Below, one piece after another: positions 26,901 through 60,565 of a stretch of 61,370 nucleotides of DNA (the stretch's first letter is position 1; each line of letters opens with the position of its first letter). The notes under the pieces are model-generated. The model was given only the letters and a program-made list of their open reading frames with translations. It ran no database searches and was not told the origin of the DNA. The stretch lies in NCBI GenBank assembly GCA_030272585.1, contig BSYQ01000021.1, positions 1 to 61,370 of the forward strand, in the 5' to 3' direction. The stretch is from Bryopsis sp. KO-2023 (taxonomy: Eukaryota > Chlorophyta > Ulvophyceae > Bryopsidales > Bryopsidaceae). A program made the position numbers and the translations under genes.

Positions 26901-29900
26901 CTCCTTTTCTTGAGGTAATTTTTTAAATTTTGTACTTCCCCAAAGAGATTTGGGAGTGTTTGTTTTAGTGTTTTCTTTTCTTTTCCACACACCCCAGTAC
27001 ATGTGTTTTGCTGAACAAGACATTCCTGGGATGCCATTATAAACCAGGGCGAGTCCCTGCCAACTTAGCTCAATGAAATTGTGTATCACGAACAGCTTTG
27101 TGCCGAGACAACAGTCCACCACCCCCAGAAAACATAATTGCGTGGTCGTCACACATGGCCGTTGAAGTAATAGAAGAATAGAAGAGTGGCCCATCTGATC
27201 ATTGTTAATTAGTGCCAAACTTTCATTTAGATGTTGGAAAAGTGTCGCATCTCTCTGATTTATTCTCTGACTTCAGGGTCATCTTCCATGTGGCCTGGAG
27301 AGACCAAAGAATATACTATCACCGGATCCGATGTTTATGGAAACACCCGTGATTTCCCTGATCCATCCATTATTGATATTGAAATTGTTCCTTCTGATGG
27401 AAATTCCACTGTTAGCCCCTTTCAAGATTCTTCTTCTGGAGTATCATTTAACGTCAGGTATTGAGAAAAAAATATTCTTGGGATTTTGCAGGGTTTCCTA
27501 TGGTATCTTACAGCTTCGTCGTAGATGTGTTGGTTGTGTTCGTTTTGTGTCGATCCAGTTTTGTTCTTGTTCCCCAACGATTTAAAATGTAGTGCACTGA
27601 GGAAGTAACATGGTGCAAAAAAATTCCAATTCGACGTACAGGATTACAAGGGTGGGGGACTACAATCTTCACGTCAAGATTAAAGACGTCCATTCCAAAG
27701 GATCACCCGCACTTTTGAGGATTGATTCCAAAGACTTTTTCATATCAAACTCAATCATAGACGGAGAAGGCCTTTTCTACGCTAACCCAGGCACTTGGAA
27801 TCAAGTGAGACCTTGTCTGAAATCTTCCAAAAACACTTCAAACTTCAGTGCATCGGGAAGCAATCTTAGGAATCTGTTTTCATCGGGAAGTCACATACAT
27901 ACAAACTAGTGGGGAGACAAGGTCTCACCTGCTGTGGGACCGTTCGAAAAAATGAATATTATGTCGCATGCAATCTATAGCTTGTGAGTTTACGCAACAC
28001 CCTGGTGCTTTCTGTTCGATGTTTGTTTGCTTCCTTGTTTGTCCCACACCTGTTTTGCATGCAACAAGTGATTTTGATGCAACATTTTGTCTTCATATTG
28101 ATCTTGGGTACACCAAAACATCCAGTTGGGGAAAGGCGGGGGCAGATACTCTGACACCTGTGTGCAGACAGTGACAGCTTCAACTCTTTTTTTTCTTTTC
28201 TAAGGTCAGATTCATACCTCGAGACGAGTTTTTAAACGAGATCGAAGACAATGCGTTCGATGCCCATGTCAGTCTGCTTGTTACAAATGTTGAAGACTCT
28301 CACCAAGTGCAGGCCACTCGCTTCAACTCCACAATTAACACCAACGAACACTATGCGTACTACAGAGTGGAAAAGTCAGGAGAGTATGACTTGACTATTC
28401 ATGTTACAGAAGAGTCTACAAAGCAAGCCATGGTCATGCCGGGATCGCCATTCCGTGTAAAAGTTTCACCAGGCCAGGTAAACGAGAAGAGACTCCATTA
28501 TTGTGTAGTAGGCACGTTCTGTGTTATTGCTTTCCGGGTGTTGAACCCTGAAGATTCAGATTTTTAGGGGGTTAGAATCACTCAATCAAAAATTAGATGT
28601 TGCCTGGGGAGCCACTCTGCTCCTATAGCAACCTAATATATAAGGTTGCTATATATTAATTCCATCTCAAAAATAAGCCAAAAATAATGAATTAATCAAT
28701 AATTAGAACCTTCTTTGTTCAATCAATCGATCAATTATTTCAACCCACAGCAAAAGAGAGCCATCACCCTTCATTGCTGGAACAAGAACGAAAAAGATAT
28801 AAAACCCCCCCTTAGGGATGTAAACCTGCTCATCGTAATAAAGCCATATCTTGTGGGAGTAAAGCTAATTTGCCTGATGACACCCGACTAGAAAGATCCT
28901 TGGGATTACCCCAGCGAAAATATCTCGATGCAAAAAGCGAAATGAAGAATAAAAAGGACAGATCTTTATTCCGTGCAGGTGAGGGCAGAAAAATGCACAG
29001 CAAAAATAATGGGATTTGGAACTTTCAAAGCTGGAGATGATTGGCGAGCGGACATAACAGCAAGAGATGAGTTGGAGAATGTTAGACGTGACCCTGATGA
29101 CATTTTCACTGTGACTGTTAAGCACCTTGATACTGCGTCGGGAGTTCTGGAACAGGTGCCATCTATATTTCTGGCGTCAAATGGGACCCACAGAGCATCG
29201 GTTAGTGTCAAGATATCTGGCACGTACAAGGTGTGGATACGCATCAAAGGATCGCTGATTTCTGGATTTCCCGTCACATTTGACGTCATCCCAGGAGAAA
29301 TTTATGTGCCGCACTGTCTAGAAGATAACGGCGAAATAAATTCGGCAGTTGAGGCTGGGACAGACGTGCAGGTGGTAGTTGCACTGATGGATAAATTTCA
29401 CAACGCGGTTATCAATGGGCCAGGTGCGGATCAGAGATCAGGAAATATGACCGATTAATTCAATGCCGTTTGTTCCCAGCAGTGAATGTTTTTTCAATTT
29501 CACTGGCCCTTTTGTGGCCCTAAATTTGCCTTTCTCATGATGTTGTGGCCCTTTTGTGGCCCCAATTTGTAGGAAAAAAATAAAAATGTGGCCCCAAGTT
29601 CAATGATACGACTTGCAATGTTTGGAACACAACTGATTTATATCTGTTGGTTGTGAGTTCTGTGGCATGATCAATTGTTTTCTTGGATATGGCCCCTTTC
29701 CTAGTAGACTTTGGGTGGATGTGGCCCTTATGTGGCCCCAAAATTATCTTTTAAAAATTGTTTTGGCTCGTTTGTGACCCTAGTTTTGCAAGTCAACTTT
29801 TTTTTTTGGGCCCTGGGGCCACAAAAAAATACACTGGTGCCCAGACACATAATGCGAATTTATCATATGTCATTACGAATCCAGTATGCTTTGTGCAGAT

Positions 29901-49551: not shown

Positions 49552-50747
49552 TTAATCTTGTCGTTCCAGCAGGCGCCCAACGTCAACCTTGAGGCCATGG
49601 GTATTGTACTGTTCTGCAAGACTCCTCGCCAAGACTTCTTTCCCTCCCTTAATACAAGACCACACAATTGCATGGGCAGTATCTAAATTCACCTGCACAC
49701 AGAACAAGCATGAATATTATATTCCAGTCAAAATTCAAATCGTATGAAATGCACAGTGTTGAAGACACAAACCTTCAGCTGTGCAGCTTCAATTTCTCTG
49801 AGAATTGTAAGGGAGGTTTCCCATTTCCCACACTTTGCGAGAGCCCTCAACGCAGAATTATACGTTTCCAGGTCAATAACCATCCCAGCATCCCACATTG
49901 AATCCAGAAGCTGCAGGGCCATGTAAGCCTGATCTCCAGCTTCAAGGGCCCACATTAGGGCTCTACACATCCCACGATTTGCAGATTTCCCCATCATTTG
50001 CATGACAATAAACAAATCCAATGCTTTGTCCCAGCCTCCAACCATTGCATAGTGATTCAAAAGGCCATAATACACACTTGAAGTTCCAGCCAGGCTTTGT
50101 GAGTGCATGGTACTCAAAATTGTCTCCGCTTTGGACCAATTCGCAGACTTTTCGCATGCGGCAAGCGCAGACACAAAAGTGATGCGATCGGGCGAGATTT
50201 TGTCCCGTACCATTTCATCGTAAAGATCAACGGCGATCTCAAACATCCCCCCTCGTTCGCAGGCCCCAATGATCGCACTATAGGTGACCAGATTCGGCTT
50301 GCATTCGGGATCTTCTTTGGCCGCCTTCTTCATGGTCAGAAAAACCTCCAAGGACTTCCCATATTTTCCCGAATTGCTACAAGCGGAAATCAACGCAGAG
50401 TAACTGTAGGTGTTTGGGCGGACACCAGGAAATCTACGCATGGTTTCGAAAACCTCCATGGCCTTCTCCCAATCCCGCAATCGGCCGCACAAATTAATTA
50501 ATGCAGTAAAAGCCTGTTCCCGTGGTCGGAATGTGCAGCTCTCGATAACACGCCGCACATCACCTGTTCCACGGGGGGAATATTGCACTGCCATTTTCAA
50601 AGCATCCATGTCCGCAGCGTACTTCGGAACCCCATTCCAAGAATACGGGGTGTCCCAAACCTCATACAAATTCGCAGGCGGCAGAAGACTCAATGGTAGT
50701 GGTGGAACTTGAATTCCTCCGGCTGTCTTGACCTTCGATGGGCTCAT
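49552..50747 (-). CDS. P-class pentatricopeptide repeat (PPR) protein
   Basis: Two exons, 49773-50747 and 49552-49692 (minus strand), join in phase 0 at AAG|gtttgt and gtgcag|GTG. They give 371 residues starting MSPSKVKTAGG and ending ERQD. From about residue 75 there are about seven helical-pair repeats of about 35 residues, with typical cores such as NTYSYSALISACSNSGKYGK, NLVTYSAIIGACERGGMFEI and DRITFVSALAACEKSANWSK. PPR proteins of this class bind organellar RNA and help its processing, stability or translation. No E or DYW editing domain is present. The N-terminus is short and not a clear transit peptide, so plastid or mitochondrial targeting is only inferred from the family. A further 5' exon is possible. 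Confidence 0.9.
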
Positions 50748-52923
50748 TTTTGCAGACTTGATAAAAAGAAAGAGACAAAACTATCTGCACAAGGTTACAG
50801 CACTACTCAAGAAGAGCTTTTCCTCAAAGCGGGCTTTTTCAGTCCGGAATGTCAGATTGCGCCGCGTATAAAGGCACTGCGACCTCGCCTTGCAATTCCA
50901 GTCCCGCTGAGAAGTAGGTACTTGCCCCCTTGACAAAGGAAACCAGGCTGCAGAACAGTCTTTATGGCAGGCGACATTGCGTGCGTAGGCGGATTTCGAA
51001 AGATATCTCCGAAATCTGAAAAAACTCCCTTCATCGGCGTTTCAAACAAGGGTGTTGACATGACGTAGTCCTTGAGGTTTTCCTGTTGAAAGACGGAGAT
51101 AGACCAGTGACACCAGTTGTCAGCAACACCACGTCACGATTGGAGCGAATGCTCATTGAGACCATCAAAATTTGACAGCATTATACGACGCAGGTCGAGA
51201 CTGGGACTCGGCAACTTGACATCAGGCTGCTGCTGAGTCCGATGGGATGGGCCGTGATTTCGTTTGTTCTGGGAATGCAGCAGAGACACTAGGGGTTTTC
51301 TTTTGTTATCGAACAGCTGGTGGTTTCACAATCTCGTCTGTGGGTTGCATTCCACAACTTAGAGATACTCTTCTCGTTTCAATCATATTGATGATTGCAA
51401 AAACTTTCTTGGAAAGAGCTGCAAATGCAAACTGCTTCTTAACATGAATCGGTTAGCCATGTTTTAGCCATGATGGAACGAATACTGTCTCTTGTCTCTT
51501 GCAACAAACGAAATGAAGAAAGAAGGAAGTCTCTTTCACATGCAGTTGTTGTTGGTGTTGTCAAACAATCGTGATATTTCATTGTCAGAGAGTTACCTCT
51601 TTGACAACGTTGGTGCCGTCTACGTGTAGTTTTCAGAACTTTCAGCATATTGCATATACACAAAAGAAATTATACTTCATTTGTACAGCCACATAGGTTC
51701 TTCTCCAACGTGAATGACGGGTAGAGTGTGAGTTCTGCCACATGTGGCAGCAAAATCGGGGGATTCGATTCCGCGGCATATTGAAATGGTGATAGATATT
51801 AAATGAATCAGGATCAAATTTGTTTTTTAAAACACCTTTTTCTTGTACCCTCGTGTCCCAAAAGTGAAAACACGGCTTGCGTTTTGCAATGTCCGCTTGA
51901 TCTTAACTAGAATCCCTGTGTTGATCAAAGTCTGTATGGTGAGACTTTCTCGATTTGCAGTCAAGGGTGGAAACTCTACCAATTTCAGGGTTAATTCTTT
52001 TGTTGATCTTGTCTTTCTTTGTCAACTTCATTACCTTCTCATTACCCTGACATGTTAACAGAGATAAGAGCTGATGTGAAAATCTTGCAACCAAGGCAGC
52101 ATAAGTCAGCAAGACAAAAGAACAACAACAAAATTCGAAGCCATAAGAGTAATTATGCTAGTAAAAGAAAGGGGTGCATGTAAATTGATGGCCTGTATCG
52201 TTGAGAGTAAGTAGGTGTCCTCTTATCAGAAAGTTGTAGTGGTGGAATCTACACGCTCATATCCGAAATACCCTGTGGAGGCGAAAAGTCATAGCCAGTG
52301 TGGTAGGAGTGTTCCCGTCTGCTTGTTGGGCACAGAGCATTGAAAACGCTTAATCAATCTTGATTTCAAGGCTGGATGAGTTCCAGCGTTCCAACAGGAC
52401 CCTGTCTTGTCTTGCCAGGAGGGTTTGCTTCTCTTTGTGGAATTTCCGCTCTTCCGTTCCTTCCATTTTCGTGGGATGCCCCATGACGGTAGTTCCGAGA
52501 AGAATGCGAACAATAGTACGCAGTCTATCTCGCAGCACCCATAATTTGTGCCTTTTGCGTGTGTATTGTGCGTTTCGTGGATTTATATCTTCTACAGCAT
52601 GGTGTTTTTGGTGGTTACTGTCGTTTCAGCTTTGCTGCTGTGGTGGACTTGCTGGGAAGACTAGTTCAGACTTGACAATATCTACTACTGGTCCTGGTAT
52701 TGCGGTTGATAATATTGGGGGAGCCAGTGACAGGGACTTGGAGCGTTCAGTTCTTGCAAGGTCTGAAAAATCAATCTTGTTCTTTACTTCTGGACGCGTG
52801 AGGAAAAGAACATTCTGTTTATAGAGGTCCCACAACCAGATTTTTTGGCTAGTGGAATAGCTCGTACCACTTGTTGTTCCTGACAATGGTTGAACATCAT
52901 GCAGTCCCAAATATCATGGCCAG
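50748..52923. other. Divergent gap between PPR and kinase genes
   Basis: It holds the PPR 5' flank and, probably, the unplaced first exon or exons of the kinase gene. The stretch around 52628-52820 has an open + frame, but no family match or phase could be shown. Confidence 0.4.
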
Positions 52924-58184: not shown

Positions 58185-60565
58185 ATGGGAGATTCTTCTA
58201 TACCGGCCACCACACAAGGGCCGAATGAAGTGGGTGCTTTCCGGTCAGAAGAGGATTTTCTGAAGTCTGATTACGCCGACTACAGTGATCATATGCAAGC
58301 ACAGGTCAGATCTGTTACTTGTATACTGATTAAAAACTGCAAATGACCAAAAGGTATCACAGGGAAAAAGTGGGAGGGACTTGAGCAATAATTCTCAATG
58401 TTTTTAGGTTTACAGTGGACATGGAGGTAGCAAACCTTCACTAACATCTGCCGAGGGAATTCCTGGCATTCACCATGTGGGGTTGTTTCCTGTCCACATG
58501 GTTTCAGATCCCCCCAGGCAGCACCAAGGGATACCCAGTCCTATCACGGATGCTACAGAGTTTGTCCACCAGGATCATACCCTGTCACTAGCAAACCTTC
58601 AGGGAGCAGCGTTTCAGAAGAGCATGGAGTTGCATTCTTTCCCAAATTTCCCCAATCTTAGAGGAAAACAATCAGGGCGCATCTGTACATCTGGAAAAAG
58701 CTCGCTTGAGGACGATTTCTCCCAATCTCTCAAGAAAAAAAGGCCAACATGCCGATTGCAGACATCACTTCCATTGCCTGGTAGGTGTTTTTTTTGGTCA
58801 AAACCTGTTTTTCATAGGTGAACAGTATGCCCCGTAAATGACATTATCTGTTTTTGATGATAGGTGGGGAGATGTCGACATTTGAGCCAATGTATGATCA
58901 ATCACATGGTCTACAAGCTCAGTTAACTGATTGCCCACGATATTTGAGAACGAGTGAGAATCAATTGACAATCGAAAGGTCTGAAAGCTACAGGATGAGT
59001 TGTGATCCATTCAGAACTAGATGGAAGCCTAACTCTGTACAGCTATCAATCCTTGAAGAACATTTCAACTCTGGTAAGCTCTTTCCGGTGTCAGGAAAAA
59101 TTGATTCGTGTCAATTAATATATTGTGAACAGAATTTTTTTTCTCTCAGCTCACATATGGTATTACAGTAGTTTCTGACAATATACTGATTCTATTTTCT
59201 TCATCAGGATTATTGTCCCAGAATCTGTTTGAAAGGACTTCGTGTGTACAGGTTATACAAAAGCTACTCCTGAGCTGCATGCAGCTGTTCAAGGAGCAGG
59301 CCTTGCGACAGAATCCCAAGTTAGTGTGTGGCTGAAGAACAGGCTGTCACGGTGTCGTCGTGCCCCAATGAAGGTGATATGTGAGCCAAGTATGATGTCG
59401 ACATCTTTTGAAAATTTATGAAAATTATGTTTTGGTATGGTTACACGTAACGTTTTTGCTGTCACAGATGGACAAGGATGCACCAACGTCAGATGGAGAA
59501 GAAAAAGAAGATGATAAGGTACAGCATTTGGGATTTCTGTGCTGGAAGATAGGGTCATGTTCAGGCCTGAAAAATAGCTGGATCATTGGAAGAAACATTA
59601 CAGCTTGATAGGAATGACATTTGAATTAGAAGAATATGTCTTCCCAATGAACCCTCTTTGTATTGATCTCTTTACAAGGCTTGAGAGATATTGTTGTGCC
59701 TTACAGTGGCCATGGGAGGATTTTCAGGATGTGTCGAGCTGTGTGCTGAGTGAGCTCTCAATGATTGTGGAGGCAGTTCACAGAAGTGATATTATGCTGC
59801 TCGCTGAATCAATAGGCAATGCATGCCGTATTTGCTGCTATGGAGCAGGAAGAGAAGGGTTTGTCATGCAGGGATTAGCATCAAGTTTACATCATCTGGG
59901 TCATGAGTGCTACGTCATTGGAGACACAAACCTCCCTCGGTTTGGTCCTGGAGATCTATTTATTGCAAGTGCTGGACCAAGCTTCCACAATTTGGTATGG
60001 AGCTTCTGGTGTCATTGGCACACTCCACAGTTATTAAGCATCTTAGTGGAGGAATAGTTGTGATGATTACGACTCACAATACCCCAAAAAAGTTACCAAA
60101 TGAATAGCATTTGAGAAAAATAGGAGATGACTGTTGGGCTTATCTTTGTTCCCATCATTTGTGTGATCTGCCCAATAATCTGAGGTCTTCTGGTGTGTGT
60201 TTTATGGGGGGTTTACACAGGGAAATGCTATTGCCATGCAGGCTTTTCAGATGGGAGCAAAAGTTGTTGCCCTAACTCCACTGGCAACACCACAACTTCC
60301 CTTTGCTGATCATGTTGTAAGAATTCCAGCCCCCGCATTTCCTGCCAGTCTCAAGAATCCTAGTTCCAGTATTCAAGATGGGAATGATAGCAATGATATT
60401 AGGAAGGAATGTCTGCCATTAAAAAAGAAAGAAGGCATGCTTCACTTTGGCTCTGCGTTTGAGATGAGTCTGTGGGTGACGTTGGAGTGTGTGTCTATCA
60501 TGTTGCGAAAACTGTCTTTCGTGTCTGTTTCAGACATGCGAGCTAGGCATACGAATCTCGAATAA
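58185..60565 (+). CDS. Homeodomain fused to a SIS (6-phospho-3-hexuloisomerase-type) domain
   Basis: Seven exons join in phase: 58185-58304, 58408-58780, 58864-59073, 59252-59373, 59468-59518, 59578-59994, 60221-60565, giving 545 residues. Residues 1-210 are Ser/Pro-rich and unrecognised. Residues about 214-271 form a homeodomain (RTRWKPNSVQLSILEEHF, then SQVSVWLKNRLSRCRR) that keeps W48, N51 and R52. A short acidic linker (276-292) leads to a complete SIS domain: CYGAGREGFVMQGLASSLHH, GDLFIASAGPSFHN, AMQAFQMGAKVVALTPLA, FGSAFEMSLW, ending MRARHTNLE. That ending is typical of the HxlB sugar-phosphate isomerase family. SIS domains bind phosphosugars for isomerisation or for sensing by a regulator. 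The fusion suggests a phosphosugar-responsive DNA-binding protein, which is inference. The ATG at 58185 is the only usable Met in the first exon. Confidence 0.82.

Follow-up and report, generated by a model that had tools for sequence, protein, structure and literature searches.

Positions 58185-60565 of the forward (+) strand of a 61,370-nucleotide (nt) stretch of Bryopsis sp. KO-2023 (contig BSYQ01000021.1; the whole stretch is called the window below) hold one seven-exon gene, whose 502-amino-acid (aa) protein joins a homeodomain to a phosphosugar-binding SIS domain. We rebuilt the gene independently of the initial annotation of this DNA, with splicing by homology. The central claim of that annotation, that both domains lie in a single reading frame, stands: the coding length of 1509 nt equals 502 codons plus a stop, all six introns (103, 83, 178, 94, 188 and 226 nt, from 5' to 3') are GT-AG, and 27 related proteins carry the same fusion. 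Along the chain, an N-terminal region is followed by the homeodomain (residues 215-272), an acidic linker (273-299) and the SIS domain (300-502). Proteins of this architecture are called HD-SIS proteins below, and relatives from databases are given by number (e.g., P0003).

All exons lie on the + strand. Exon 1 (58185-58304) begins with a putative start codon, the first ATG of the open frame, and encodes the start of the N-terminal region up to its GT donor. Exon 2 (58408-58780) continues this region and includes the basic motif LKKKRP, by motif alone a possible nuclear localisation signal. The N-terminus shows hardly any conservation, and in P0003 the region is predicted to be disordered, with a predicted local distance difference test score (pLDDT) mostly <50. 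The homeodomain (59013-59364) is encoded by the 3' end of exon 3 (58864-59073), which supplies the N-terminal arm and helix 1, and by exon 4 (59252-59373), which supplies helices 2-3 with WLKNR; the intron between them (59074-59251) is in phase 1 and cuts within a Gly codon. Exon 5 (59468-59518) is a mini-exon, phase 0 on both sides, that encodes the acidic linker MDKDAPTSDGEEKEDDK. The end of the linker and the start of the SIS domain (its helical N-terminal part, GAGRE and the SAGP loop) come from exon 6 (59707-59994), and the remainder, through MRARHTNLE and the stop codon, from exon 7 (60221-60565), so that the SIS domain spans 59728-60562 and is split by the intron at 59995-60220.

These exon ends agree with the initial annotation except at the start of exon 6, which had been placed at 59578, behind an AAATAG acceptor in open frame. 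We place it at 59707, where an acceptor ending CCTTACAG opens the exon with WPWEDF. The motif PWEDF is kept in P0002-P0004 (P0001 has PWLDF), and with this start the 27-residue linker aligns gap-free to P0002-P0004. Because 59707 restores both PWEDF and the relatives' linker length, 59578 was rejected, and further open acceptors for exon 6 were dropped on the same grounds. In a search of the alga's own genome, 59704-59994 was recovered as a single match.

The two domain-coding halves lie 333 nt apart (59374-59706), and a stop at 59575 falls in the SIS frame, as might be expected if the locus were two adjacent genes or an assembly artefact instead of the source of a single protein. The interval between them speaks against such a boundary, since none of AATAAA, ATTAAA and TGTAA occurs in 59374-59706; AATAAA is present at 60561 and 60686. 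The relatives, described below, bear on the same question.

The two domains

The Pfam homeodomain model PF00046 matches residues 215-271 of the whole protein at E 0.0081 (16.4 bits; the cut-off is 22.9) and the excised 64-residue homeodomain piece at E 7.8e-5. W261, N264 and R217 are invariant in 16 of 16 aligned proteins and correspond to homeodomain positions W48, N51 and R5 (position numbers, including 49 and 53 below, were assigned in this analysis). AlphaFold2 models of relatives contain three helices, with pLDDT blocks of 88-97 in P0003 and 97-98 in the core of P0107, and the fold predicted for their homeodomain is matched by solved homeodomains, with WUSCHEL/STENOFOLIA nominally at the top. 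A three-helix homeodomain, as predicted, with W48, N51 and R5 places the protein in the homeodomain superfamily.

Two homeodomain classes were considered and rejected. Membership of the WOX class conflicts with a four-residue gap relative to STENOFOLIA and WUSCHEL (WUSCHEL is one residue longer still) and with helix 3, which reads WLKNRLSRCRR, not WFQNHKARER. The hallmarks of the TALE class (KNOX/BELL) are WFINxR in helix 3 and a three-residue loop extension; here helix 3 has WLKNR instead, and the Pfam alignment contains a net one extra residue. The WFIN homeodomains of this genome map to other loci.

Among curated models, TIGR03127 (HxlB) fits the SIS domain best, matching residues 305-427 at E 2.4e-25 and 89.4 bits without reaching its equivalog cut-off of 160; NF041755 (HxlAB) covers residues 301-502. 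The initial annotation had described the domain as complete down to a C-terminal MRARHxNLE, and the protein indeed reads MRARHTNLE at that point. The SIS part of the P0003 model has pLDDT blocks mostly of 87-98, with 57-71 at residues 471-500. In a Foldseek search, its best matches were YckF, AF1796, MJ1247 and an HPS-PHI fusion, followed later by other SIS proteins that include RpiR regulators, with NanR and RccR appearing from rank 10 on. The Rossmann-like fold that defines the SIS superfamily is thus present in the model. RccR aligns to residues 264-544 of the P0003 model, i.e., across both domains, at a root-mean-square deviation of 10.4 A, so the order of the parts is common to the two proteins and their placement is not.

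This shared order, helix-turn-helix (HTH) then SIS, and the presence of NanR and RccR among the structural matches could be taken to mean that the gene is a bacterial RpiR regulator that was transferred into the alga, and that what looks like a homeodomain is really its HTH. We give that idea hardly any credence: PF00046 is the first match in 14 of 14 homeodomain pieces with no RpiR-type HTH listed for any, both the profile and the model match WUSCHEL/STENOFOLIA and other homeodomains, the SIS domain resembles YckF/MJ1247 more closely than it does the SIS domains of RpiR proteins, and introns split the gene. RpiR membership was accordingly rejected, the homeodomain being all that Pfam finds in the window protein. 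The initial annotation's parallel with RpiR therefore survives as a likeness in domain order, backed by full-length RpiR proteins that follow the hexuloisomerases in Foldseek, and fails for the HTH itself.

Its description of the SIS domain as HxlB-type also needs qualification. Profile and fold are HxlB-like, but solved HxlB-type chains carry the loop SGSGE(T), presumably phosphate-binding, where every one of the 56 stand-alone rows in this SIS branch has SAGP. With SAGP in place of SGSGE(T), the label does not name the ligand. We compared residue conservation in 30 HD-SIS rows with that in these 56 stand-alone SIS rows. Among the HD-SIS rows, R341 is present in 25, E342 in 27, H355 in 24, S380 in 24 and G382 in all 30; towards the C-terminus, E469 is present in 24, H498 in 23, N500 in 30 and E502 in 27. 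The window protein retains R341, E342, H355, S380-P383, T407, E469 and R497-E502, and has lost two features of the stand-alone family, R352 and the GxFST loop. We infer a pocket, its residues predicted, that has been retained and released from the full constraint of the stand-alone family.

Relatives, paralogs and the rest of the window

Two database searches gave 15 and 103 matches, together 107 different proteins. The architecture that the initial annotation proposed to look for elsewhere is present in 27 of these, all with the domains in the same order; one (P0107) has the homeodomain only, and 79 have no homeodomain motif (78 counted as SIS-only, while P0065 from oil palm was unassigned by motif). 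Four proteins are truncated within a domain: P0025 and P0026 begin within the homeodomain, and P0020 and P0031 are without part of the SIS C-terminus. Residues 205-502 of the window protein share 55-56% identity with P0001-P0004 over 97% of that region (E 7e-95 to 3e-92). A search with the homeodomain alone returned three proteins from 11 candidates, none of them additional, and is a weak guide to homeodomain relatives that lack SIS. Some HD-SIS proteins are labelled in databases just as 'Homeobox domain-containing protein'.

The named fusion carriers are chlorophytes: Ostreobium quekettii (Ulvophyceae; P0005, P0017 and P0019), Myrmecia bisecta (Trebouxiophyceae; P0015) and Trebouxia sp. C0006 (P0020), the last of which we take to belong in this group. 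The streptophyte setting assumed by the initial annotation is not borne out, since the streptophyte relatives recovered (Mesostigma, Closterium and land plants) have SIS alone, with no homeodomain motif.

The two domains appear to have travelled together. Across 28 HD-SIS proteins, homeodomain and SIS distances correlate with a Spearman coefficient of 0.82, a value reached by 0 of 2000 permutations, so the pair was inherited as a unit. In an SIS tree of 86 rows, the 30 HD-SIS rows and P0027 fall together on the same side of a branch supported at 93/69.9 (not starred), and P0023-P0025 stand separately, adjoining the midpoint root; the tree allows a single origin of the fusion but does not prove it.

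Searching the genome itself (91.1 Mb in 28 contigs) revealed two further HD-SIS genes, at C15:507401-509239 (L103) and C1:920309-922155 (L104). All three genes share a phase-1 intron in the homeodomain Gly codon and two phase-0 introns, one immediately after the homeodomain and the other within the SIS domain, the latter at the same codon in each gene (positions were read by eye from the DNA). In the SIS tree, the C15 gene groups with Ostreobium P0005 and the C1 gene with P0017/P0010, which suggests three old paralog groups. A separate scan of the genome with the Pfam SIS model PF01380 gave a sole locus, on C13, in three stretches within 1.3 kb.

The matching introns of both paralogs, the 27 single-chain relatives and the correlated divergence add to the polyadenylation-signal result given above, and it is very improbable that this locus consists of two neighbouring genes or was misassembled, even with P0027 and P0107 as single-domain proteins. 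Separate adjacent genes for the two domains were not seen in the neighbourhoods viewed, which were those of the two paralogs. P0001-P0003, all from one source, have frames 528-559 aa long, and their contigs measure 2.5-3.5 kb; these are probably assembled cDNA, because contigs of that size could hardly accommodate introns in the number seen in the three genes here, and they too argue for one chain. At the level of sequence, the gene structure by homology, the domain content, the conservation of the fusion and the presence of three such genes in this genome are shown, and we read HD-SIS as a homeodomain class of core chlorophytes.

SAGP-type SIS domains without a homeodomain are found in land plants, Mesostigma, Closterium and many bacteria. 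A scan of bacterial genomes gave 215 relatives, and 80 loci (L008-L087) were retained from it. Beside the SIS gene lies an ABC permease cluster in 58 of the 80 and a solute-binding-protein cluster in 57. In three bacterial loci the annotated neighbours comprise ABC sugar-type transport, an SDR, a glycerol-1-phosphate-dehydrogenase-like protein and a HAD phosphatase, together with a regulator with a sugar-binding domain, a zinc alcohol dehydrogenase and a xylose-isomerase-like barrel. This setting suggests catabolism of a sugar or sugar alcohol (or its phosphate), with no substrate named; the model name attached to the 80 loci is 6-phospho-3-hexuloisomerase, and their true substrate may be another.

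Neighbours of sugar uptake and oxidoreduction are what one expects of an enzyme, and the window protein could by the same token be a nuclear or moonlighting sugar-phosphate isomerase that its homeodomain takes to chromatin. The HxlB profile and fold and the retained E469 and H498 would fit. We nevertheless consider this improbable, given that the window SIS domain is without R352 and the GxFST loop and that bacterial HTH-SIS fusions are known to yield regulators.

Elsewhere in the window, an open frame at 28946-29455 (+) matches the N-terminal Ig-like domain of GEX2 (PF23616, E 6.2e-8), which we take to be a gamete adhesion protein, and 49731-50780 (-) encodes a pentatricopeptide repeat protein, the frame being open across 350 codons. 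The window contained no tRNA and no Rfam match. A scan of it for bacterial-type promoters found nothing, which has no bearing on this gene.

Proposed function and known systems

We think that the HD-SIS protein is probably a transcription factor controlled by a sugar phosphate, which would set its assembly or activity, and thus a eukaryotic parallel to RpiR regulators. The protein would be imported into the nucleus and bind DNA via its homeodomain, while the SIS domain would assemble it into dimers or tetramers, as in RpiR regulators. Binding of a sugar phosphate to the SIS pocket, which would lie at the subunit interface, would stabilise one assembly or free another, and the altered assembly would then bind or bridge different promoters. 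Such a protein would be a homeodomain regulator of the one-component kind, responsive to a metabolite, with an origin independent of bacterial RpiR and an SIS domain from the 'SAGP' branch. The first ligand candidates would be hexulose-, pentulose- or sugar-alcohol phosphates.

RpiR regulators offer two precedents for how the ligand might act. According to one report, KDPG bound to the SIS domain of HexR frees the protein from DNA (PMC5489143); according to a preprint, ManNAc-6P locks NanR as a tetramer and leaves its DNA affinity unaltered (PMC12713135). For HD-SIS we think it likelier that the ligand sets the oligomeric state, and that sites are bridged or spaced, than that it releases the protein from DNA directly, because the linker is more like NanR's flexible arrangement than RccR's ordered one. 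In P0003 the linker is predicted with low confidence (pLDDT 63-64).

Several observations weigh against metabolite control of a DNA-binding protein. Position 49 of the homeodomain is Leu, not Phe, and position 53 is Leu, Ala or Ser, not Arg, so DNA binding by the homeodomain is not assured. With a threshold as loose as E 10, PF01380 still did not match the window protein, and it missed its locus in the genome scan; precomputed PF01380 matches exist for some relatives (e.g., P0015 and P0023-P0025). R352 is present in 12 of 30 HD-SIS rows versus 55 of 56 stand-alone rows. The window protein has Ser at this position and also differs at T388 (Leu), V389 (Gly), Q426 (Pro) and T427 (Ala), among others. 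P0009, P0012, P0013 and P0014 have an intact RHTNLE tail but degenerate glycine and pocket motifs (GVGAES, GVGKGA), and in some lineages such as these the SIS domain may have been kept for assembly only, a role that accounts for these four proteins equally well. P0027, an SIS protein without a homeodomain, is nested within the HD-SIS clade, and P0107 (415 aa, four member sequences) has a different tail in place of SIS; either one-domain products exist or some models are incomplete, and P0107 is possibly a splice variant or an assembly error. Finally, NanR provides an example in which an SIS ligand need not alter DNA affinity (PMC12713135).

Some of these points would suit an SIS domain that is purely an oligomerisation platform, its metabolite response lost and its pocket a relic, in a multimeric homeodomain factor. 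R352 is missing from 18 of 30 HD-SIS rows and more loop residues are altered, four relatives have degenerate pockets, the end branch of the window SIS domain in the SIS tree is long (1.06), and identity to P0003 is 48/58 in the homeodomain and just 101/199 in SIS. A dead pocket, however, would not need E342, S380-A-G-P383, E469 and R497-E502, all kept in the window protein and each present in 23-30 of the 30 rows, and we judge such a relic unlikely. Control by a sugar phosphate remains our preferred reading.

More broadly, we tentatively propose, as a somewhat less secure idea, that HD-SIS is an ancient, sugar-phosphate-controlled homeobox class of core chlorophytes and the first one-component metabolite switch among homeodomain proteins. 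The class would have arisen once, before the split of Ulvophyceae and Trebouxiophyceae, have expanded into three old paralog groups in a lineage close to siphonous Ostreobium, and link photosynthetic carbon state to gene expression. Partners and dosage are the usual terms in which homeodomain factors are understood. Control exerted directly by a metabolite, if true, would be a bacterial-style nutrient switch built from eukaryotic parts in green algae, which may then sense sugar state directly at their genes. With members in two algal classes and three genes here, the fusion looks like a selected module, and it would be a case of convergence, HTH and SIS having been combined twice from different halves.

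The initial annotation knew of no described homeobox class with an HxlB-type SIS domain, and we likewise found no description of a homeodomain-SIS protein in the literature searched, most subscription journals lying outside it. A paper on Caulerpa homeobox genes treats KNOX/BELL and mentions abundant 'HB-other' genes, and 'isomerase' occurs 0 times in its accessible part (PMC6476727). What is known, then, is the homeodomain with a ligand-type domain (HD-START) and the bacterial HTH-SIS fusion; the pairing of homeodomain and SIS is new as far as we could find.

Each known system shares part of this architecture. Like HD-SIS, the RpiR family (HexR, RccR, NanR, MurR) has HTH then SIS, whereas HD-SIS has a eukaryotic homeodomain, an HxlB-like SIS domain, a split gene and a long N-terminal region. 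HxlB/PHI proteins (YckF, MJ1247, AF1796) provide the best profile (TIGR03127) and the best solved folds for the SIS domain; HD-SIS differs in scoring below the equivalog cut-off, in having SAGP for SGSGE and in its fused homeodomain, and any enzyme role is putative. The stand-alone SIS proteins (e.g., Arabidopsis P0066/P0071, Mesostigma P0035 and Paraburkholderia P0048) belong to the same SAGP branch, with the motifs GVGRE, SAGP and HTNLE, but lack a homeodomain and keep R352 and the GxFST loop more strictly. WOX proteins (WUSCHEL, STENOFOLIA) have the homeodomain that HD-SIS resembles most, yet HD-SIS departs from them in length and helix 3. The HD-Zip III/IV homeodomain-START proteins of plants combine a homeodomain and a domain of small-molecule-binding type in one chain; HD-SIS has SIS in place of their START domain and leucine zipper.
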